A stretch of DNA of 64,000 nt from Ignavibacteria bacterium (lineage in GTDB: Bacteria; Bacteroidota; Ignavibacteria; Tepidaquicellales; OLB5): positions 1 to 64,000 of the forward strand of contig JADZAP010000005.1 of assembly GCA_020852705.1 (NCBI GenBank). The letters are read 5' to 3'. The notes beneath the pieces were generated by a model. That model was not told the origin of the DNA. It saw only the letters and a list, made by a program, of their open reading frames with translations, and did not search any database. How positions within the stretch are numbered: the stretch's first letter is position 1; each line of letters opens with the position of its first letter. The position numbers and the translations under genes were made by a program. This document shows, piece by piece, positions 8,641 to 22,546 of this stretch.

Positions 8641-10386
8641 ATGAAAAGAAGAGATATGTTATTGGGTTCACTTGCAGCAGGTGCATTGTTATCTATCCCA
8701 AAACCGCTGCAGATATTTGCTAATGAAAAGAAAACGGCTATTCTTACAGAAGTAACAGGTTCAGGTAATCCACTCAGATTTCCTCCCGTATTTACAAACG
8801 GAGGCAATTTAACTCTTGCTCAAACTACCAAACAGGTATGGCCCGGGCAGGATACACAGATTATCACTATCAATGGGTCGTACCCGGGTCCAAGTATTGT
8901 TATTCAGAAAGGACAGACTTTCACCGCAAATGTTATTAATAATTTAAGCGAAGATATCACAACTCACTGGCATGGTGTTTCTGTTCCGGCTAATATGGAT
9001 GGACACCCAAAAGATAAAATTATTCCGGGTGCTTCATATACTTATACTTTCCCTGTTATTAACAGAGGCGGGACTTATTTTTACCATGCCCATGCAGATA
9101 TGCTAACAGCTAAACAGGTGTACAGGGGCTTTGCCGGATTTTTTATTGTGGTTGATCCCGCTGAAAATTATAATCTGCCTTCAGGCAATTTTGATATTCC
9201 TCTCTGCATTCAGGATAGAAGAATTGCCGATATTCCTAACTTTAATTATAACCCGGGAAATTATGAAATGATGTGGGGTATGCTTGGTGATACTGTTCTG
9301 GTAAACGGTACTCCTGATCCATATCTTGAGGTCAGCCGTACATTATACCGCTTTAGACTTCTGAACGGCTCAAATGCTAGGGTTTATAAAATTGCATTTT
9401 CTGATAACAGGTCATTTCATATTATTGGCACTGATGGCGGATTGAAAGATGCACCGGTTACAGCAACTGAATTTATGCTTGCTCCGGGCGAAAGGGTTGA
9501 AATACTAACTGATTTTTCTTCAAATACAATAGGTTCCAATGTAACTCTTAAATCACTTGCTTATACACACGGCGGAATGATGCCTTATAAACAGGGTATT
9601 CCCCTTGATATTATTCGCTTTGATGTTGTTAACAATAATTCATCAGGCGGAATTGTGCCCGCAGCATTTGCTCCTATTTCGTATTACAATCCTGCTGATG
9701 TTGTTAATACCAGAACATTTACTCTAACTATGAGCCCCTCACCGCCAATGCATAAAATTAACGGTCTTACTTTTGATATTAGCAGAATTGACTGGCAAAC
9801 TCCGTTATTAGCTCTTGAAAAATGGAAGATTATTAACGGAACTGCTGATATGCACCCAATGCATACACATGATGCACAGTGGCAGGTTCTTTCAAGAAAT
9901 GGTAATACCAATCTGCCGCCTAATGATAAGGGATGGAAAGATACTGTTAATCTTAACCCCGGTGAAACTGTTGAAGTACTTGTCAAGTTTATTTCATATA
10001 AAGGACTATACCTGTTTCATTGCCATAACTTAGAGCATGAAGATGACGGTATGATGCTGAATTTTGAAGTAACTGACCCGATTGGAATACATCAGATTGG
10101 CACTGAAGTGCCGCAAAGTTTTGAACTTCATCAAAACTATCCTAATCCGTTTAATCCCGAAACTAAAATAAAATTTGATATTGCACAATCTAACAGCAAT
10201 TTAACCGCTGAGCTGAAAATATTTGACATTCAGGGCAGGCAGGTTGCCGAGCTTTATAACGGTAACATTAATGCCGGTAAATATGAAGCTGAATGGAAAC
10301 CCGAATCGTTGCCAAGCGGCACATATTTTGCCAGATTAACGGCAGACAGTTTTTCCAAAACAATAAAATTAGTTTTAACAAAGTAA
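8641..10386 (+). CDS. Multicopper oxidase with Tat-like signal and T9SS C-terminal sorting domain
   Basis: 581-residue exported laccase/CotA/bilirubin-oxidase-type enzyme that would couple oxidation of a phenolic or metal substrate to O2 reduction. Copper ligands are visible as HWHG (H109, H111), YHAH (H149, H151), HPMHTH (about 403-408) and HCHNLEH (about 460-466, containing the type-1 copper cysteine). The N-terminus MKRRDMLLG plus a hydrophobic stretch looks like a twin-arginine signal. The last ~85 residues, from NYPNPFNPETKI to the end, are a type A T9SS sorting domain that would carry the enzyme across the outer membrane. Single gene; its promoter is not obvious. Confidence 0.92.
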   Translation: MKRRDMLLGSLAAGALLSIPKPLQIFANEKKTAILTEVTGSGNPLRFPPVFTNGGNLTLAQTTKQVWPGQDTQIITINGSYPGPSIVIQKGQTFTANVINNLSEDITTHWHGVSVPANMDGHPKDKIIPGASYTYTFPVINRGGTYFYHAHADMLTAKQVYRGFAGFFIVVDPAENYNLPSGNFDIPLCIQDRRIADIPNFNYNPGNYEMMWGMLGDTVLVNGTPDPYLEVSRTLYRFRLLNGSNARVYKIAFSDNRSFHIIGTDGGLKDAPVTATEFMLAPGERVEILTDFSSNTIGSNVTLKSLAYTHGGMMPYKQGIPLDIIRFDVVNNNSSGGIVPAAFAPISYYNPADVVNTRTFTLTMSPSPPMHKINGLTFDISRIDWQTPLLALEKWKIINGTADMHPMHTHDAQWQVLSRNGNTNLPPNDKGWKDTVNLNPGETVEVLVKFISYKGLYLFHCHNLEHEDDGMMLNFEVTDPIGIHQIGTEVPQSFELHQNYPNPFNPETKIKFDIAQSNSNLTAELKIFDIQGRQVAELYNGNINAGKYEAEWKPESLPSGTYFARLTADSFSKTIKLVLTK

Positions 10387-13571: not shown

Positions 13572-13664
13572 TCCTACAACAGCGGGATCTAAAATTAACA
13601 AATTTTTAAATCAGTATCGGTAATGAAAGTTTTAACATTAATCTAAGATCCCGATTTATCGGGA
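13572..13664. mobile_element. 93-nt MITE-like insert (P1) in CRISPR repeat 1
   Basis: The insert splits the repeat between its 15th and 16th base. It contains an imperfect inverted repeat: CGGGATCTAAAATTAA (13583-13598) against TTAATCTAAGATCCCG (13638-13653), 14 of 16 bases pairing. It ends with the hairpin TCCCGAT-TT-ATCGGGA. A diverged copy sits in the orphan repeat at 10583-10674. No coding capacity. Confidence 0.7.
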
Positions 13665-13674
13665 CAAATTGTTC

Positions 13675-13698
13675 GTGCCTGCCCCGATAAAATCGGGG
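13675..13698. repeat. 24-nt palindromic insert (P2) in CRISPR repeat 1
   Basis: Replaces the TTTG at repeat positions 26-29 with GTGCCT plus the hairpin CCCCGAT-AAA-ATCGGGG. The same insert is found at 13771-13794 (repeat 2) and 10685-10708 (orphan repeat). Its core, CCCGAT...ATCGGG, is shared with the hairpin at the end of P1, so both belong to one REP-like family. Confidence 0.8.
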
Positions 13699-13770
13699 AC
13701 GATATTTGTTACAACACAAGTAGGCTGGATCACGTGAACACGTGAGTTGTGATTTGCTTTCAAATTGTTC

Positions 13771-13794
13771 GTGCCTGCCCCGATAAAATCGGGG
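13771..13794. repeat. 24-nt palindromic insert (P2) in CRISPR repeat 2
   Basis: Same insert, same position within the repeat as in repeat 1; the rest of repeat 2 matches the consensus exactly. Because it adds 20 nt between the TTTG box and the GATATTTG box of the repeat, it should disrupt the promoter embedded there. Confidence 0.8.
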
Positions 13795-13848
13795 ACGATA
13801 TTTGTTACAACAATGTTTGCAAGAACATCAAATCCTATTCAGTTGTGA

Positions 13849-13880
13849 TTTGCTTTCAAATTGTTCTTTGACGATATTTG
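13849..13880 (+). promoter_or_regulatory. Promoter embedded in each CRISPR repeat (shown for repeat 3)
   Basis: TTTG (13849-13852), 20 nt, then GATATTTG (13873-13880): the Bacteroidota TTTG-N19-21-TAnnTTTG layout with only the first T of the -7 box changed. Transcription would start about 6 nt later, at the repeat/spacer border, so each repeat could start its own crRNA. It recurs every 76 nt to 15862. Confidence 0.55.
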
Positions 13881-15862
13881 TTACAACCAATAAAAAACCT
13901 ACTACGATGCGAGCTTTGTTGTGATTTGCTTTCAAATTGTTCTTTGACGATATTTGTTACAACATTACTTAATTTATTTGAACAAAAACTCAAGTTGTGA
14001 TTTGCTTTCAAATTGTTCTTTGACGATATTTGTTACAACTACGAACCTGTTATTCAGAATAGGGCATTAGTTGTGATTTGCTTTCAAATTGTTCTTTGAC
14101 GATATTTGTTACAACTGAGAGCCGAAGAAAGCCCAGCACGTGCAAGTTGTGATTTGCTTTCAAATTGTTCTTTGACGATATTTGTTACAACACACTATTA
14201 TCATCCTTATTAGGCCAGTATGTTGTGATTTGCTTTCAAATTGTTCTTTGACGATATTTGTTACAACTTGGAAAAATGCAGGGGCAACCACTGATTAGTT
14301 GTGATTTGCTTTCAAATTGTTCTTTGACGATATTTGTTACAACTAAATCCCCAGCTGATATTATAACCTTGTAGTTGTGATTTGCTTTCAAATTGTTCTT
14401 TGACGATATTTGTTACAACGGAAGAAGGGGAAGGTTACGCTGCGCTCCTGTTGTGATTTGCTTTCAAATTGTTCTTTGACGATATTTGTTACAACATGGG
14501 CGTGTAATCTTGAATACCCAGCATTGTTGTGATTTGCTTTCAAATTGTTCTTTGACGATATTTGTTACAACAATCTCATTAAGGTTATCACCGCCTGCAC
14601 TGTTGTGATTTGCTTTCAAATTGTTCTTTGACGATATTTGTTACAACTAAACTGGCAGAGCTTATAAAGCACACCAGGTTGTGATTTGCTTTCAAATTGT
14701 TCTTTGACGATATTTGTTACAACTCTCTGCTCTGGGTTAATATCTGGGAGCTTGTTGTGATTTGCTTTCAAATTGTTCTTTGACGATATTTGTTACAACC
14801 GTTATTATCGCCAAACTATCCTGGCTATAGTTGTGATTTGCTTTCAAATTGTTCTTTGACGATATTTGTTACAACAAATGAAATAAAATTAACCCGTGCA
14901 GATAAGTTGTGATTTGCTTTCAAATTGTTCTTTGACGATATTTGTTACAACTCCAGCAATGACATATGTAGTAAGTCCGTTGTTGTGATTTGCTTTCAAA
15001 TTGTTCTTTGACGATATTTGTTACAACAGCTTTGCCGATCTTACCCAGCTGGTCTATGTTGTGATTTGCTTTCAAATTGTTCTTTGACGATATTTGTTAC
15101 AACCCTTAGCTCCATCCTTCCAGGCTGTCATGTGTTGTGATTTGCTTTCAAATTGTTCTTTGACGATATTTGTTACAACGCATTGAACAAAGCAGTGACC
15201 GGAGAGCCAGTTGTGATTTGCTTTCAAATTGTTCTTTGACGATATTTGTTACAACAACATACTGGAATGCTGAAGCTGTTAACAGGTTGTGATTTGCTTT
15301 CAAATTGTTCTTTGACGATATTTGTTACAACGTAGCCCGTCAGATGGTAGCAGCAGGGATGGTTGTGATTTGCTTTCAAATTGTTCTTTGACGATATTTG
15401 TTACAACGATCCTTGCAAGGTTAACAATTGAGCAACAGTTGTGATTTGCTTTCAAATTGTTCTTTGACGATATTTGTTACAACAGCTGAGATAAAGATTG
15501 TAGCCGTGTATAAGTTGTGATTTGCTTTCAAATTGTTCTTTGACGATATTTGTTACAACTGGTTCCTTATGATGAACTTCCCGAGGAGCGTTGTGATTTG
15601 CTTTCAAATTGTTCTTTGACGATATTTGTTACAACTGCGGTATGAATTGATGAGCTTCTTCAAGGTTGTGATTTGCTTTCAAATTGTTCTTTGACGATAT
15701 TTGTTACAACTATAATAGCCACAGACCCCACAGACCTCAAGTTGTGATTTGCTTTCAAATTGTTCTTTGACGATATTTGTTACAACGTCTTTGTTCATTA
15801 TTTCAGAGCAGCTCCTGTTGTGATTTGCTTTCAAATTGTTCTTTGACGATATTTGTTACAAC

Positions 15863-15985: not shown

Positions 15986-16327
<342 letters not shown>

Positions 16328-16353: not shown

Positions 16354-17313
16354 TTATGATTCCATTACAGGATATAAAATATTTTTAACTTTTCCTTCAA
16401 AGCATTTTGCAACAGATGAAGTTGTTCTTTGCATTGCTACCATTAGCGGACTTTTTTCTTTATCAATAATTACATCAGCTGCAGGCAGCTCAAGCAGTCT
16501 TTGTTTTATCTGCTTATTCAACTCTTCCTCCCTTATACCGTAATCTGTTAACTCACATACTATTTTATCAGCAAATGGTCTGTATGGCTCCATTATGTCA
16601 TCAGCAAGGCAGTAAGCATTATATTTGTTTCTGTGAAATATACCCAATGTAGGCAGTAAACCGCTTCCTGCAAGTGCCCTTGCAGTAACAGCCCTTAAAA
16701 TTGCATAAGAATAGTTTAGCAGATTGTTTGGAGGAGGTCCGGATCTTGACCTGTAGAAATCAATATTTTCAGAAAATATTGCTTTCCAGTAATAAGCTGC
16801 CGCCCTTGCCTCATGCCCGCCGGTATCACCTGATTTAACTTCCGATGCCCAGCTTATCATATTACCTGTTTCCCTGCCTGCTGAACTTAATAAACCGGCT
16901 TGATTTAAAATTTTTGCCTTAACTGTTTGCTGCCACAATTGTTTTTTTAAAGGCATTGATGATTCAATCTGTGCTCTGAATTTTTCTGATTGTGTTGAAT
17001 TTGAATCTAAATTTAAAAACAAACCTGTCGGGTGATGTGTTTTATTGCAAATTACAATAGCTGAATTATTTTCAAGCAATGCATTTAGCAGATATTGAGA
17101 AATTGTTACTCCGTAATGATCTATAATTATTACCCCTATATCTTCTATTGGTATTGTTTTGTTAAGGTTTTTTCTGTTTTCATATCTTTTTTCGTAATCT
17201 TCATAATCAACAAAGTTCATTTCAAGCTGTTCAGGTTTTAGATTAATAATTAATTGATCCTGCTTACAGCTTAAATAAGCAGGGGAGCCAAAATATAGAG
17301 TTTTTTTAATCAA
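16354..17313 (-). CDS. cas1: CRISPR-associated integrase Cas1
   Basis: 319 residues; integrates new spacers into the array. Metal ligands of the all-helical catalytic domain are visible in GHEARAAAYYW (Glu), GIFHRNKYN (His) and DIMEPYRPFAD (Asp/Glu). Length and motifs fit the type II Cas1 branch (about 290-320). Its ATG overlaps the end of cas9 by 4 nt, so translation is probably coupled. With cas2 also intact, adaptation should be possible. There is no csn2 or cas4, which defines subtype II-C. Confidence 0.97.
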   Translation of the reverse strand: MIKKTLYFGSPAYLSCKQDQLIINLKPEQLEMNFVDYEDYEKRYENRKNLNKTIPIEDIGVIIIDHYGVTISQYLLNALLENNSAIVICNKTHHPTGLFLNLDSNSTQSEKFRAQIESSMPLKKQLWQQTVKAKILNQAGLLSSAGRETGNMISWASEVKSGDTGGHEARAAAYYWKAIFSENIDFYRSRSGPPPNNLLNYSYAILRAVTARALAGSGLLPTLGIFHRNKYNAYCLADDIMEPYRPFADKIVCELTDYGIREEELNKQIKQRLLELPAADVIIDKEKSPLMVAMQRTTSSVAKCFEGKVKNILYPVMES

Positions 17314-20300
17314 CTAAGTTTTACTATTTTGCCTGTTGTAGTAATTTTTATTTTTATCCCCTTGAATGTATTGTATGTCCACCTTATAACAATCGGCTTT
17401 TTATCTTTATCAGCTTTAATATTGCTTAAATTATGAATACCTAAAGTTAAGTTGCCATTTACATCAGATTTAACAAATCTATACAACCTATTGCTTAATT
17501 CAGTTTGATTGCTCCAGTTTATTTCATCAGGATGATTTTCATATACAACAACTAACTCATTTTGAGACAATGTTAATAATAGCTTGTTATCTTCAATTGT
17601 CTGTTTAACTACAGGTTCTTTGTTAATTTTACGTTTAACTGCATCAAAGAATGAAATTGTTTCATATTTTCTTTTACCAGTTTCTTTATTTTCGTATATC
17701 GCCATGCAGAAGTTATTCCCAGAGGATACATATAACTTAGTGTTTTCATTTGGTCTAAGCTGTATCATGTTTTCAGCAGGGTCTATCATTCTTACACAGT
17801 TTATTGGAATTTTTTTCTTTTTATCTTTGCTCAAAATATATATAGGCATCTTTAAGGCTTCTTTTACCTTTTTTTCACCACCGTTTGCTTCTATATGATT
17901 TAAAATGATTTCTCTAATTGCCTTATCAACTATTTTATTAACCTGTTTAATAGTAGTAATATCTATTACTTTTTTTCTAATTACATATACAGGTATTTTA
18001 GTTTCGGGGTGCTGTATTTGACCATATAAAGTATCTTCATGCAATGCCCCTCTAACTGAAAATGTCTTCTGAACATTCGACTTTTTTGAATGTATATATT
18101 TATTCTTTTTCTTTGATATAAGCCTTTTTTTATTCTTATAAGAAATAAGTATTTCTTTTAACTTTTCTTCTGCATCAACCGTAAATGAGCTATAAGGTAT
18201 AGGAAAATGGTCTGTTTTCAGTCTGCCAGTATAATCAAAATGACTTGCAGTGCTTAACAATCTTATATTTTCATTAGTTGTATTCGCAATTACAAGCGCA
18301 TCAATGGCATGGTGTCGGTGGTCATCCCTGCTTTTTTCATTCTTGCCATCAGGGTTCAAGATTTTATTAAGTTCCCATATATTTCTCAGAATGCTTGTTG
18401 TCTGGCCGTTTGAAATATACACATCCCGGCAAATAGTTTTTAGCTTTTTTCTTGCTTCTTTTGCTATATATGCATTATTTGTTAATTGATTATTAAGAAA
18501 ATCATCAGGAATAACTTCCATAGTAAATCTTTCTTGTTTTGCATCGTTAAAATATTTTATTCTTTCCACAAAGTCGTGCAGTTTATCAGGTCTTTCGTTA
18601 AACCAAGTTGCTTTCAGCTGCTTGCCTACTTCATTGTTAAATTCTCTTTCGCAAAGAGTTTTGTTAATAAAAGAATCGTCCATGCTCTTACTGTAAGGTA
18701 TAATATGCTCGATTTCTATTTCTGAGCTGAATAATTTCTCAAGGTTTATAACTTTTCCTGTATATGGCGATATTCTGCCGCATTCCAAATAAAGTCGGTA
18801 TTTTTCATTATCTGATGGCTTTGCTCCCTGAGCAAACTTCTTAAATTCTTCAGCATTAATATCACTGTTTATTTTTTTCAAATCATTTTCGTAGAACTGT
18901 AATTCAAGCCAAAGTTCAAATTTTAAAATATCTGCTTTTGTAACATTTTTCATTTTGAGTTTTTCTTTTAGAAACTCAATATATGCATCTCGTCTCGCTC
19001 TTTTATCGTCATTTGCCCGTTTCATTTTTTCACGGATTTTTTTAGGCTTTTTCATCTCTCGGGCAAGTTCAACCCTTATCTTATCTGGTTTACCATGCTC
19101 TGCAATAATAGCATTAACAAGCCTGTAGGTTTCGCTTAAAGCCTGCTGCACACTTGGATTTTTTAAATCATCGCCTTTATTTCTTTGTATTTTTTCATCA
19201 AGTATTCGTGTTTTACTATCTGTTTCATCATCATATGAATGATGATACCCTGCTAATTCGCAGGCTTTGGCATAATCATACCCTTGTTTCATTAAAGGCA
19301 GTATTTTCGTTATTGCCTTAGCACTGATATTTGAATAATCTTGCTCTAATTCAACCTCAACGTAGCTGTTTGCCTGTTCTTTAGTAAGCCCTAACTTATT
19401 AATTGCATATTCATATAACCATTCCTCATCATTTGCGAAAAACAAAGTATGCCATAATTTGTATTTTGTTTTATGATCAAGCACTTCAAAATACTCTTTG
19501 CCGAAAGCATCAATTAATTTGTGATTTGTTGTGTTCCCTTTAATTTTGTCTGGCATTTCATTAAAAACTGTTTGTTTACTTTTAGGAAATCCTAGCAGTT
19601 TCTTTATTTTATCTTGAGAAATTTCTTTACTAATGCTTAAATAATCCGATAGCATTATCTTTTCATCTAAAGTAAGTTGGCTTCTGTATCTATCATCATA
19701 AGTAACTCTTAAATTATTTATAGTTTGCCATATTCTGAATTCCTGAAATAAAAAAGAGCTTTTTGGAGCTACTCTTTTATTTGGCTCAAACCTGCATTTA
19801 CCTACTAAATGCTTCTGTGATTTCAGTGGGCGTTGGTAAAAAATGCAATTGTTTTTTATTTTATTCTTATTTCCATCAGTTAAAATATCAGGATAAAATT
19901 TATTCTGAGTTTGCCAAATTAAATCGAATTCGATTTCATATAGTTTTCTATATACAAATCTTGTTCGTATTTTCTCTATTGGCTCATAATGATTATGCCA
20001 GTTTTCAATATTATTATTTTCTAGGAATAAGGTATAAAAATACTCCCCAATTGTTCTACAACCACTTTCCTCAACCTTCTTATTTAATTCATTCATTTTC
20101 AATTTCATTTCGCTTTTTTCTTTTTTGGCTTCATCAGTCTTTGTATCTTTTTTATTACTTTTAAAACCTCGCCTTTGATTCAATAACAGGAAAATTCTTC
20201 CAATTTCCTTTAATGAAATCCTTTCATCTATTGCCTTTTTCCTAAGTTTGTATAAGTCTGTTGAAGTGATTTTTAAAATCATTTCTTCAGTTGGCATCAT

Positions 20301-20549
20301 TCCAAGTTCAAGTAAAACCTTTTTTAGAAGTTTTCGCCTCAATTTATATCTGTCATACAATCTTCTAATTCCCCTTGCGTTTCTTCTTGAAGCATTCTTC
20401 GATATTTCAGTGCCGGTCTTTGCATAATCATCTTCATTAACTCCAACAGGGAATATTCTGACACCAATATCTCTAATGTGTTTTCCATCTTCCATTAAGC
20501 ACCATCCGATTGAATTTGTGCCTATATCTAAACCTAGTGTTGTGCTCAT
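17310..20549 (-). CDS. cas9: Type II-C Cas9 (small form), apparently intact
   Basis: 1079-residue RNA-guided DNA endonuclease. RuvC-I GLDIGTNSIGW (D8), arginine-rich bridge helix (about residues 52-80, NASRRNARGIRRLYDRYKLR), RuvC-II IRVELAREMK (E494), HNH EHIIPYS with H615 and FINK with N629, and RuvC-III HHAIDALVIA (H747, D750) are all present, so both nuclease sites look active. The remaining C-terminal ~300 residues hold the wedge and PAM-interacting regions. The size is that of the compact II-C Cas9 group rather than the ~1400-residue Bacteroidota group. Start is the ATG at 20549. A TACTTTTG box on the minus strand (20579-20572) may be its promoter; it lies inside the divergent tracrRNA promoter. 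Confidence 0.98.
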   Translation of the reverse strand: MSTTLGLDIGTNSIGWCLMEDGKHIRDIGVRIFPVGVNEDDYAKTGTEISKNASRRNARGIRRLYDRYKLRRKLLKKVLLELGMMPTEEMILKITSTDLYKLRKKAIDERISLKEIGRIFLLLNQRRGFKSNKKDTKTDEAKKEKSEMKLKMNELNKKVEESGCRTIGEYFYTLFLENNNIENWHNHYEPIEKIRTRFVYRKLYEIEFDLIWQTQNKFYPDILTDGNKNKIKNNCIFYQRPLKSQKHLVGKCRFEPNKRVAPKSSFLFQEFRIWQTINNLRVTYDDRYRSQLTLDEKIMLSDYLSISKEISQDKIKKLLGFPKSKQTVFNEMPDKIKGNTTNHKLIDAFGKEYFEVLDHKTKYKLWHTLFFANDEEWLYEYAINKLGLTKEQANSYVEVELEQDYSNISAKAITKILPLMKQGYDYAKACELAGYHHSYDDETDSKTRILDEKIQRNKGDDLKNPSVQQALSETYRLVNAIIAEHGKPDKIRVELAREMKKPKKIREKMKRANDDKRARRDAYIEFLKEKLKMKNVTKADILKFELWLELQFYENDLKKINSDINAEEFKKFAQGAKPSDNEKYRLYLECGRISPYTGKVINLEKLFSSEIEIEHIIPYSKSMDDSFINKTLCEREFNNEVGKQLKATWFNERPDKLHDFVERIKYFNDAKQERFTMEVIPDDFLNNQLTNNAYIAKEARKKLKTICRDVYISNGQTTSILRNIWELNKILNPDGKNEKSRDDHRHHAIDALVIANTTNENIRLLSTASHFDYTGRLKTDHFPIPYSSFTVDAEEKLKEILISYKNKKRLISKKKNKYIHSKKSNVQKTFSVRGALHEDTLYGQIQHPETKIPVYVIRKKVIDITTIKQVNKIVDKAIREIILNHIEANGGEKKVKEALKMPIYILSKDKKKKIPINCVRMIDPAENMIQLRPNENTKLYVSSGNNFCMAIYENKETGKRKYETISFFDAVKRKINKEPVVKQTIEDNKLLLTLSQNELVVVYENHPDEINWSNQTELSNRLYRFVKSDVNGNLTLGIHNLSNIKADKDKKPIVIRWTYNTFKGIKIKITTTGKIVKLS

Positions 20550-20560
20550 TTTCTATTATA

Positions 20561-20591
20561 TTTGATTTTCACAAAAGTATTTTTATATTTG
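20561..20591 (+). promoter_or_regulatory. tracrRNA-1 promoter, overlapping the divergent cas9 promoter
   Basis: TTTG (20561-20564), 19 nt, TATATTTG (20584-20591): a full match to the Bacteroidota housekeeping promoter. A candidate minus-strand -7 box for cas9 (TACTTTTG) lies within the 19-nt gap. Confidence 0.75.
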
Positions 20592-20595
20592 TAAT

Positions 20596-20667
20596 GAAAG
20601 CTTATCACAATAAAGATGATTCTACAGGCGATAAGCCTTGCCCCCAGTTCTTCTAGGGGCATTTTTA
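20596..20667 (+). ncRNA. tracrRNA-1, cognate to the array
   Basis: Anti-repeat GAAAGCTTATCACAA (20596-20610) pairs with the repeat 5' end: ATCACAA with TTGTGAT, then a TT/TT internal loop, then GAAAGC with GCTTTC. It is followed by the nexus-like segment TAAAGATGATTC, a stem CAGGCGATAAGCCTTG, and the terminator hairpin GCCCC ... GGGGC (20640-20660) with a T-rich tail. Divergent from cas9, which starts 46 nt away. Start estimated from the promoter; the exact ends are not known. Confidence 0.85.
20640..20667 (+). terminator. Rho-independent terminator of tracrRNA-1
   Basis: Stem GCCCC (20640-20644) / GGGGC (20656-20660), then ATTTTTATT. Confidence 0.8.
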
Positions 20668-20877
20668 TTAATCTGTTTATCTTAAACAAAATTTAGATAT
20701 ACAAAATCCCGTTGATATTATTTATCATGCCGCCTCTTACGAATCTCTTATGCAATTGTCTCATCAAATTTAGAAACTAACCATTGTATATGATAAAACG
20801 ATTTCCGTTCTGAATTTTACTCAATAAAAATTCAATATCAATTTTTCGATTTGCATTCTCTTTAATATATCAGTATC
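20668..20877. other. Unassigned relic DNA between tracrRNA-1 and the cas9 stump
   Basis: No intact gene. On the minus strand one frame runs about 57 codons (ending GGMINNINGILYI) with an internal TAG. On the plus strand a frame of ~33 codons ends SYESLMQLSHQI. Neither resembles Cas9 to me. This looks like deletion debris from the loss of the second cas9. Confidence 0.4.
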
Positions 20878-21090
20878 TCAAGATAATAAATAAACCTGAT
20901 AATTTCTTCTTTTCCCCCAGGCATCTGTTCTAGGCTTCACTAAGGGTATTTCTATTCCCTTTTCTTCACCAACACCTTTTTGGAATGTTAATACTCCTTT
21001 ATCTATTATTTGATTTTCTTTTATTGAAGTATCTCTTAATGCCCAGCCAATGCTATGGCTGCCTAAATCTAATCCAAGTATTTTTCCCAT
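20878..21090 (-). pseudogene. N-terminal stump of a second, different Cas9
   Basis: 70 codons starting at ATG 21090. The RuvC-I signature ILGLDLGSHSIGWALRD (Asp at residue 7) is followed by NQIIDKGVLTFQKGVGEEKG and PRTDAWGKRRNYQ, the beginning of the bridge helix. This pattern is that of the large (~1400-residue) Cas9 group common in Bacteroidota, clearly different from the intact Cas9 next door (GLDIGTNSIGWCLMEDGKHI). The frame ends in VYLLS-stop where the bridge helix should continue, and no downstream Cas9 domain is found. Only the first ~5% of the gene is left. Confidence 0.85.
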
Positions 21091-21120
21091 TTTGTTTTTA
21101 GTTTAAAATGTTTAAATTTG
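21091..21120 (+). promoter_or_regulatory. tracrRNA-2 promoter
   Basis: TTTG (21091-21094), 18 nt, TAAATTTG (21113-21120). Same layout as the tracrRNA-1 promoter, and both continue with TAATG. Confidence 0.65.
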
Positions 21121-21124
21121 TAAT

Positions 21125-21232
21125 GTTGTAACAAATATCGTTGAAGTTTACTTTTTGTAAGACTTCTCACAATAAGGCTATAAGCCGAAGATTTTAAATC
21201 TTAAGCACTGCGTATTCCGTAGTGCTTTTTTT
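21125..21232 (+). ncRNA. tracrRNA-2 (orphan, next to the cas9 stump)
   Basis: The first 49 nt align end to end with the reverse complement of the array repeat: GTTGTAACAAATATCGT (21125-21141) is an exact 17-base match, and TCACAA (21167-21172) matches the other end. The middle has diverged. Next come the II-C-like AATAAGGCTATAAGCC segment and the hairpin AGCACTGCG/CGTAGTGCT with a T7 tail. Pairing to the repeat 5' half is poorer than for tracrRNA-1. It lies just upstream of and divergent from the cas9 stump, so it was probably that enzyme's tracrRNA. Confidence 0.75.
21204..21232 (+). terminator. Rho-independent terminator of tracrRNA-2
   Basis: Stem AGCACT (21204-21209) / AGTGCT (21221-21226), followed by a run of seven T. 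Confidence 0.8.
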
Positions 21233-21817
21233 ATATCCAATAGCAATTTCTTTTCAAACAAAAAAAGGGTAACGCTTTAGCGTAAGTACTAAATGTTAAC
21301 CCGCATAGTTTTATATCCCTTAAAATTGTAAATTTATTTGTTTAAATCAAGTCATTGCAGTGCTGTTTTTTCATTATTTTGTTAAATATTGCATTTACTG
21401 CAAAAAAACTTACGTGAACCTTTGTGTATCTTCGAGTGTTTATGTTCTTTTGTATATATTTTAATCTATTTACTTGTAAATGCTTTTGATTTATAAAATC
21501 AATTCTATAAAATTCGTTCCCCTCTCCTTTTAGGAGAGGGGTTAGGGGTGAGGTCAATAACAAACTTCCTTTTAGATAAGGGGATATCGGTCCTATTTTG
21601 TAAATACCTGCCTATGCAGATTTTTGGTGAGGAAGTGTCATAACCGAATATAATTCGTTCCCCTCTCCTTTTAGGAGAGGGGCTAGGGGTGAGGTCAATA
21701 ACAAACTTCCTTTTAGTTAAGGGGTTATCGGTCCTATTTTGTAAAGACCTGACTTGTAAAGATTAGTTAATATACAAACTCCCTATCCTTCGGGGAGGGT
21801 AGGGAGGGGTCCAAGCT
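21233..21817. repeat. Intergenic region with palindromic repeat elements
   Basis: No supportable gene. Two CCCCTCTCC/GGAGAGGGG elements at 21519-21541 and 21660-21682, each followed by a near-identical ~70-nt tail (GTGAGGTCAATAACAAACTT, then CCTTTTAG and ATCGGTCCTATTTTGTAAA). A partial copy of the 127-nt repeat from the left end of the window sits at 21479-21517. A variant CCCTATCC-ttcggGGAGGGT lies at 21781-21800. Confidence 0.75.
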
Positions 21818-22546
21818 TCACCACACCAAGCCGCCATCAACACTCAGCACAGCACCGTTAATAAAATTTGCATCATCACTTGCTAAAAATAAATATGCTT
21901 TGGCAATATCTTCCGGCTTTCCAAGCCGGCCGAGCGGTGTTCTTGTTCTTATTTCATCCAGTATTTTTTGCGGTACTTTATCAATCATACCTGTTTCAAT
22001 AAATCCGGGTGCAACAGCGTTTACTGTAATACCTTTTCTGCCAAGCTCGCGTGCCATTGATCTTGTTAATCCAATAACACCGCTCTTTGATGCTGCATAA
22101 TTCACCTGACCAAAATTTCCGTATTTACCAACAATTGAAGAAGTATTAATTATCCTTCCGTAATTCTTTTCAGCCATTTTTAGGGCAGCATATTTTGACA
22201 TATTAAAAACCCCTTTAAGGTTAATATCAATCACCTTGTCAAAATCTTCAGTTTTCATCTTCATCAAAGTTGAGTCAGCCGTAATACCCGCATTATTTAT
22301 TAAAATATCAGGTCCGCCAAATCTATTTGCTGCTTCATTAATACAAAAATATGCCGATGATTTATCAGCAACATCTGTTTTTAAAAATCTGCAATTTTTA
22401 CCTAATTCTTTGGCAATTGCATTGCCGGCTTCATTTATATCTGCAATTAAAACATTTGCACCTTCACTTAAAAATAATTTTACTGCCTCAAGCCCAATTC
22501 CGCTTGCCCCGCCTGTTATAATTGCCGTTTTATTATGTATTTTCAT
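21818..22546 (-). CDS. fabG: 3-oxoacyl-ACP reductase-type short-chain dehydrogenase
   Basis: 242-residue Rossmann SDR that most likely reduces 3-oxoacyl-ACP in fatty acid synthesis with NADPH. Cofactor motif TGGASGIG (11-18), NNAG (84-87), the catalytic serine in INTSS (133-137) and Y150-x3-K154 are all in place, as is the C-terminal VDGG. Single gene on the minus strand, followed by repeats. Many SDRs share these motifs (for example acetoacetyl-CoA reductase), so the fabG symbol is provisional. Confidence 0.83.
   Translation of the reverse strand: MKIHNKTAIITGGASGIGLEAVKLFLSEGANVLIADINEAGNAIAKELGKNCRFLKTDVADKSSAYFCINEAANRFGGPDILINNAGITADSTLMKMKTEDFDKVIDINLKGVFNMSKYAALKMAEKNYGRIINTSSIVGKYGNFGQVNYAASKSGVIGLTRSMARELGRKGITVNAVAPGFIETGMIDKVPQKILDEIRTRTPLGRLGKPEDIAKAYLFLASDDANFINGAVLSVDGGLVW

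Follow-up and report, generated by a model that had tools for sequence, protein, structure and literature searches.

As a rule, exchange of Cas9 effectors is deduced from trees that disagree. Fonfara et al. (2013; PMC3936727) described the horizontal spread of type II loci, a Cas9 tree that largely agrees with the Cas1 tree, and the exchangeability of Cas9 and its dual RNA only among close relatives. Koonin and Makarova (2019; PMC6452270) described exchange in situ, with effector genes shuffled beside an adaptation module and an array that stay, perhaps under the pressure of anti-CRISPR escape. In the window (the whole stretch of DNA analysed here, 64,000 nucleotides of an Ignavibacteria genome), the adaptation module and array of a type II-C locus are likewise fixed and the phylogeny of the effector conflicts with theirs. 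We present evidence that the segment at 20893-21232 is very probably the scar of an effector exchange in this locus, in which a large clade-A Cas9 was replaced by a small clade-C Cas9 (the clade names A, B and C are defined in this analysis). The break points appear to be still readable, the start of the old cas9 and the old tracrRNA having been left in place. The locus consists of the following features.

13842-15862, forward strand: CRISPR array of 27 identical 46-nt repeats, GTTGTGATTTGCTTTCAAATTGTTCTTTGACGATATTTGTTACAAC, with 29-30-nt spacers
15986-16315, reverse strand: cas2 (type II; PADLOC Cas2_II, 9e-48)
16354-17313, reverse strand: cas1 (type II), of the host lineage (PADLOC Cas1_II, 6e-108; tree)
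17310-20549, reverse strand: intact small cas9 of clade C, 1,079 aa (TIGR01865, 3e-182; trees)
20584-20591: -7 motif of tracr-1, TATATTTG
20596-20669, forward strand: tracr-1, of clade-C type, with a 16-nt anti-repeat, scaffold and terminator
20670-20892, no strand assigned: about 220 bp of non-coding DNA, which separate tracr-1 from the stump
20893-21090, reverse strand: the stump, assigned as the first ~64-65 codons (RuvC-I) of a clade-A large cas9 from profile, whole-genome matches, DNA homology and N-terminal profiles
21113-21120, forward strand: Bacteroidota-type -7 motif before tracr-2, TAAATTTG, read from the sequence as a putative promoter
21125-21232, forward strand: tracr-2, with a full-length anti-repeat (21125-21173), nexus GGCTATAAGCC, second hairpin and terminator; clade-A scaffold

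The intact locus is of type II-C, with cas9, cas1 and cas2 only, a divergent tracrRNA and an array; neither csn2 nor cas4 was seen among the adjacent ORFs. Its cas9 overlaps cas1 by 4 bp and encodes the RuvC I-III and HNH motifs. To the left of the array (about 13664-13811) lie two further, outermost repeats, each carrying a 26-nt palindromic insert, GTGCCTGCCCCGATAAAATCGGGGAC, at the identical position. None of the spacers matched any of the sequence fetched, so they are not assignable to either Cas9 by PAM.

The 70-codon ORF that contains the stump (20878-21090, reverse strand) matched TIGR01865 cas_Csn1 over profile positions 2-51 (E 1.8e-8) and the PADLOC Cas9 model (4e-6), and it has the RuvC-I motif, ILGLDLGSHSIGWA, at its N-terminus. 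Its best matches among solved structures in the PDB were Cas9 chains. Profile searches yielded no significant match to other protein families; a non-Cas9 family was rejected, Pfam having given only RuvX-like noise. In a search of 39 related genomes, the best matches were full-length Cas9 ORFs (E 3e-17 to 7e-8), those of G030 (1,460 aa, 60% identity), G025 (1,495 aa, 58%) and G009, from the same genus (1,383 aa, 50%). The clade-A Cas9s, of ~1,400-1,500 residues, are 58-66% identical to the stump, against only 45% (E 1.6e-5) for the window's own intact Cas9, and recent duplication of the latter was rejected on identity. A sequence-only reading had taken the fragment for the start of a large-lineage Cas9 and not for a copy of the intact 1,079-residue protein. 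Both claims held: the fragment closely resembled neither another protein nor the intact Cas9, the two outcomes on which that reading had staked itself. It is thus highly improbable that the stump arose by partial duplication of the intact cas9. The same slight credence attaches to a contig in which two loci were wrongly joined; the assembly is a draft of 75 contigs, but the array that tracr-2 matches lies 5-7 kb from it on the very 132-kb contig from which the window comes, and the same arrangement recurs in unrelated assemblies.

Homology of the stump stops near codon 64, in the bridge helix, and the final codons of the ORF (VYLLS) are a run-on to 20878; 'KRRNYQ' is therefore its true end. 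The HNH, RuvC-II, RuvC-III, REC and PAM-interacting domains are absent. No further part of a clade-A cas9 was found in the host's own genome, and at no locus did we find a C-terminal relic of an old cas9 downstream of the intact gene, between the new cas9 and cas1. An ORF that ends at 70 codons, together with these two negative results, shows the stump to be a remnant and not a working Cas9. DNA homology to G030 spans the stump and tracr-2 as a single block (20899-21234; 65%, E 9e-29), and because it is continuous, the two were inherited together, from the beginning of a clade-A cas9 and the tracrRNA that diverges from it.

Three Cas9 lineages emerged in these Ignavibacteria from a tree of 91 proteins. 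Clade A comprises large proteins (1.37-1.58 thousand residues) and occurs also in Cyclobacteriaceae, Terrimonas, Marinilabiliaceae and Bacteroidales; clade B is the native type of G002 and G013, as of most of the order. Clade C unites the small Cas9 of the window with those of G297, G049 and one G020 locus (support 99/98 in a second, more careful tree). N-terminal profiles gave the stump 73 bits with clade A, 67 and 58 with sister large groups and 44 with clade C, by an assignment that was right for 62 of 69 proteins on leave-one-out. The different lineages claimed for the two Cas9s are thus borne out, by profiles for the stump and by the tree for the intact protein. With 64 informative residues, placement of the stump in clade A rather than in a sister large group is not secure from the protein alone and rests partly on tracr-2.

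tracr-2 lies upstream of the stump in divergent orientation and scored 67.4 bits with profile A, built from the tracrRNAs of other loci, against 36 with the next profile. This scaffold type would settle the clade of the stump as A, and both the N-terminal profile and the adjoining A-type tracrRNA place it among the clade-A large Cas9s. The scaffold, AAGGCTATAAGCCGAAG with minor variants, was found at 13 other loci (L020, L021, L022, L059-L062, L064, L065, L104 and L116, plus G278 and G295), always adjoining a clade-A Cas9. The -7 motif, nexus hairpin, second hairpin and terminator of tracr-2 are all present, and the nexus-like and later hairpin fold shows compensatory change in 5 of 13 consensus pairs; Rfam gave no known RNA family above threshold. 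The tracrRNA-like gene with promoter motif, full-length anti-repeat, nexus and terminator that had been proposed upstream of the fragment is therefore confirmed by its profile score. Chance is excluded as the source of the stump and tracr-2 signals. tracr-1 scored 84 bits with profile C, in whose training set it was itself included, and its scaffold type recurs in G297 and G049. Elsewhere in the order, the B-type tracrRNA upstream of cas9 in L026 (G013) has a full-length anti-repeat that tracks the repeat variant of its own array (-44 kcal/mol).

The adaptation genes have a different history from the effector. The Cas1 of the window groups within the host's order (support 99/98), with those of G002, from its genus, and G013, from its family, and with those of G016 and G018. 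In AU tests, a Cas1 clade joining the window to the clade-C loci L031 and L139 was rejected (p 1e-26), as were the union of the Cas1s from clade-A loci in one clade (p 6e-6) and a Cas9 clade of the window, G002 and G013 (p 1e-6); a shared history of Cas9 and Cas1 is rejected. The repeats track Cas1 and not Cas9, in that Ignavibacteria loci have a near-identical 46-nt repeat whether their Cas9 is of clade A, B or C; at L059, a clade-A locus, the repeat has 36 nt and is of the Flavobacteria kind. Effectors with their tracrRNAs thus appear to be exchanged over fixed cas1-cas2-array modules, and because the Cas9 and Cas1 histories conflict, we interpret this locus as the exchange of a cas9-tracrRNA cassette on a resident cas1-cas2-array. 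The idea of two II-C systems standing side by side is correct for two Cas9 lineages with their tracrRNAs; the single cas1-cas2-array is of the host lineage, and it is the cassette that would have changed hands.

Comparable scars were found at 5 of about 90 loci, the window and four others. In G009, the 51-bp tail of a clade-C tracr-1 comes immediately after an intact clade-A cas9 and its A-type tracrRNA, and is 94% identical over those 51 bp to 20616-20666 of the window. Since ordinary genes of the two genomes have about 71% DNA likeness, a recent move of the clade-C cassette within the genus is probable. The replacement in G009 appears to have run the opposite way, a clade-A cassette replacing a clade-C one. 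The draft of G009 lacks cas1, and a flank common to it and the window, CAAACAAAAAAAGGG, was set aside as too short to claim homology. G020 has two loci with nearly identical Cas1; beyond the new tracrRNA of its clade-C-Cas9 locus lies the terminator tail of the B-type tracrRNA of the other locus, and the next 631 bp are 97% identical between the two. In L059 (Cyclobacteriaceae), a clade-A Cas9 and tracrRNA are followed by a 20-codon stump and a D-type tracrRNA, Cas1 and repeat being also of the D kind. In L064 (Marinilabiliaceae), a clade-A Cas9 and tracrRNA are followed by an 18-codon stump, a small gene and then a B-type tracrRNA. All three stumps (18, 20 and 64 codons), a small sample, retain fewer than 65 of about 1,400 codons.

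Other partial or displaced loci were seen in the survey. Elsewhere in the class, most of the short Cas9 frames lie near contig ends or are longer partial frames. In G672 (L198, 9321-9790), a B-type tracrRNA and the beginning of a B-type cas9, about 100 codons long, are closely followed by a single CRISPR repeat, which is best read as the relic of the deletion of a whole type II-C locus, different from the scar in the window. A ~440-bp repeat flanks a complete type II-C locus of G020 on both sides (L024; 6496-6936, 17679-18135 and 18227-18670), an arrangement that resembles a composite transposon, and also occurs upstream of cas9 in L031. L094 (JAFGUC010000040.1), labelled Woesearchaeota, carries a Flavobacteria-type cas9 and tracrRNA and is probably a binning error.

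The order of events in the window is indicated mainly by the fit of the anti-repeats, the order in G009 being the opposite. The anti-repeat of tracr-2 pairs with the local repeat at -40.3 kcal/mol (z -10.6; shuffles about -11), against -36.0 kcal/mol with the next-best of the repeats extracted. All 22 of its distal 22 nt pair with the repeat, the two differences being G-U wobbles, and this distal part scores 18 with the repeat of this array, the highest of all repeats extracted, against 16 for G013 and 15 for G002. tracr-1 pairs with the repeat at -18.7 kcal/mol through 16 nt common to the order. Because the anti-repeat of tracr-2 is tailored to this array, the large system probably used it first and the small one came later. 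The sequence-only reading had left undecided whether the smaller system replaced the larger or was inserted beside it; the tailored fit favours replacement with take-over of the array. It is unlikely that the large Cas9 instead arrived second, with a clade-A cas9-tracrRNA unit landing next to a small system already in place and later losing its 3' part. The physical order cas1-cas9(small)-tracr-1-stump-tracr-2 would suit such a tandem insertion and deletion, and in G009 a clade-A cassette did enter where a clade-C tracrRNA had stood. Yet it is the distal anti-repeat of tracr-2 that fits this array best of all, that of tracr-1 being generic, and the distal part is missing from the clade-A tracrRNA of G009 itself.

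In the favoured order, from large to small, a clade-A Cas9 and tracr-2 would formerly have served the array at 13.8-15.9 kb, until a small clade-C cas9 arrived as a cassette with its own tracr-1, presumably by recombination. The left border of the cassette would be the cas9/cas1 junction, because the C-terminus of the small Cas9 is of clade-C type down to its last residues; the right border would fall within the 5' portion of the old cas9. The body of the old gene would have been lost, its first ~64 codons, the promoter region and tracr-2 staying behind, and cas1, cas2 and the array would have been retained. The new tracr-1 would pair with the old repeats through its short, generic anti-repeat; because it does so, the small Cas9 could use the old spacers, and the small system may be active at present. 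The best candidate for a donor of the small cassette reached 44%. The sequence-only reading had proposed to look for sister genomes with a full-length large cas9 at this locus; none was found in which a clade-A cas9 is intact at precisely this site, the full-length gene of G009, with its tracr-1 relic, lying at another chromosomal place.

The intact hairpins and promoter motif of tracr-2 would fit either a recent event or the retention of some role, and whether it still acts is the most interesting point raised by this locus. The proximal half of an anti-repeat is the part that Cas9 should need. In tracr-2 this half is weak (-11.8 kcal/mol; two clade-A loci reach -23.7 and -29.6), as expected if the RNA is decaying, and it has probably lost its function. 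We consider it doubtful that tracr-2 still functions, for example as an RNA that, bound to the 3' half of every repeat, guides processing by RNase III or the supply of crRNAs to the small Cas9. Its promoter motif, hairpins and terminator, the complete distal pairing, and the persistence of complete relic tracrRNAs in L059 and L064 would agree with such a role. Scaffold types nevertheless track Cas9 clades, the relics in L022 and L031 are mere tails, and the relic of L059 pairs poorly with its own array (z -1.8). We hold it equally doubtful that tracr-2, freed from its Cas9, became a trans-acting RNA controlling pre-crRNA processing or supply for the small Cas9.

Between the two tracrRNAs, 20670-20892 had no convincing homologue among 44 genomes of the order, and its read-through frames had no Pfam match; short AT-rich matches in four genomes lay beside unrelated genes and were judged to be chance. 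The CRISPR locus sits between two genes (8641-10386 and 21818-22546, the latter an SDR gene) whose counterparts neighbour each other in G008, G012 and G002, congeners without CRISPR at that place. In G002 the CRISPR locus lies elsewhere in the same neighbourhood, between an RND pump and IMP dehydrogenase, and loci thus seem to change position within the genus; the two spots occupied within one neighbourhood (window 13.6-21.2 kb versus G002:C10) suggest that the whole locus moves locally. An element of 107 bp that contains a CCCTCTCCttttaGGAGAGGGG hairpin is present in two copies, 94% alike, at 21507-21613 and 21648-21754, and copies similar to it lie beside the locus region of G002 (L025, 17855-18072).

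With readable scars, three questions become testable: to what extent spacers already stored can be taken over by a foreign Cas9, how the anti-repeat of a tracrRNA comes to fit the array that it meets, and whether swaps are driven by anti-CRISPRs. A short cas9 start with a second tracrRNA of another class is, moreover, a signature searchable at scale. No report of a leftover cas9 start with a second tracrRNA was found in the open-access literature searched, a negative limited to that literature; the event seems to be of a known kind and well preserved, and the type of scar seems undescribed. Like the II-C loci of Flavobacteria and other Bacteroidota, this locus has the order cas9-cas1-cas2, a divergent tracrRNA at the start of cas9 and a repeat within their range of 36-47 nt beginning GTTGTG; unlike them, it holds the tracrRNAs of two Cas9 clades. 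In contrast to the largely concordant trees of Fonfara et al. (PMC3936727), Cas9 and Cas1 here strongly disagree. As in the exchange described by Koonin and Makarova (PMC6452270), cas1-cas2 and the array stay and the effector is swapped, but here both effectors are type II-C Cas9s and the exchanged unit includes the tracrRNA gene. The start of the old effector and its tracrRNA are left as a readable scar, and the scars of two congeners appear to run in opposite directions.
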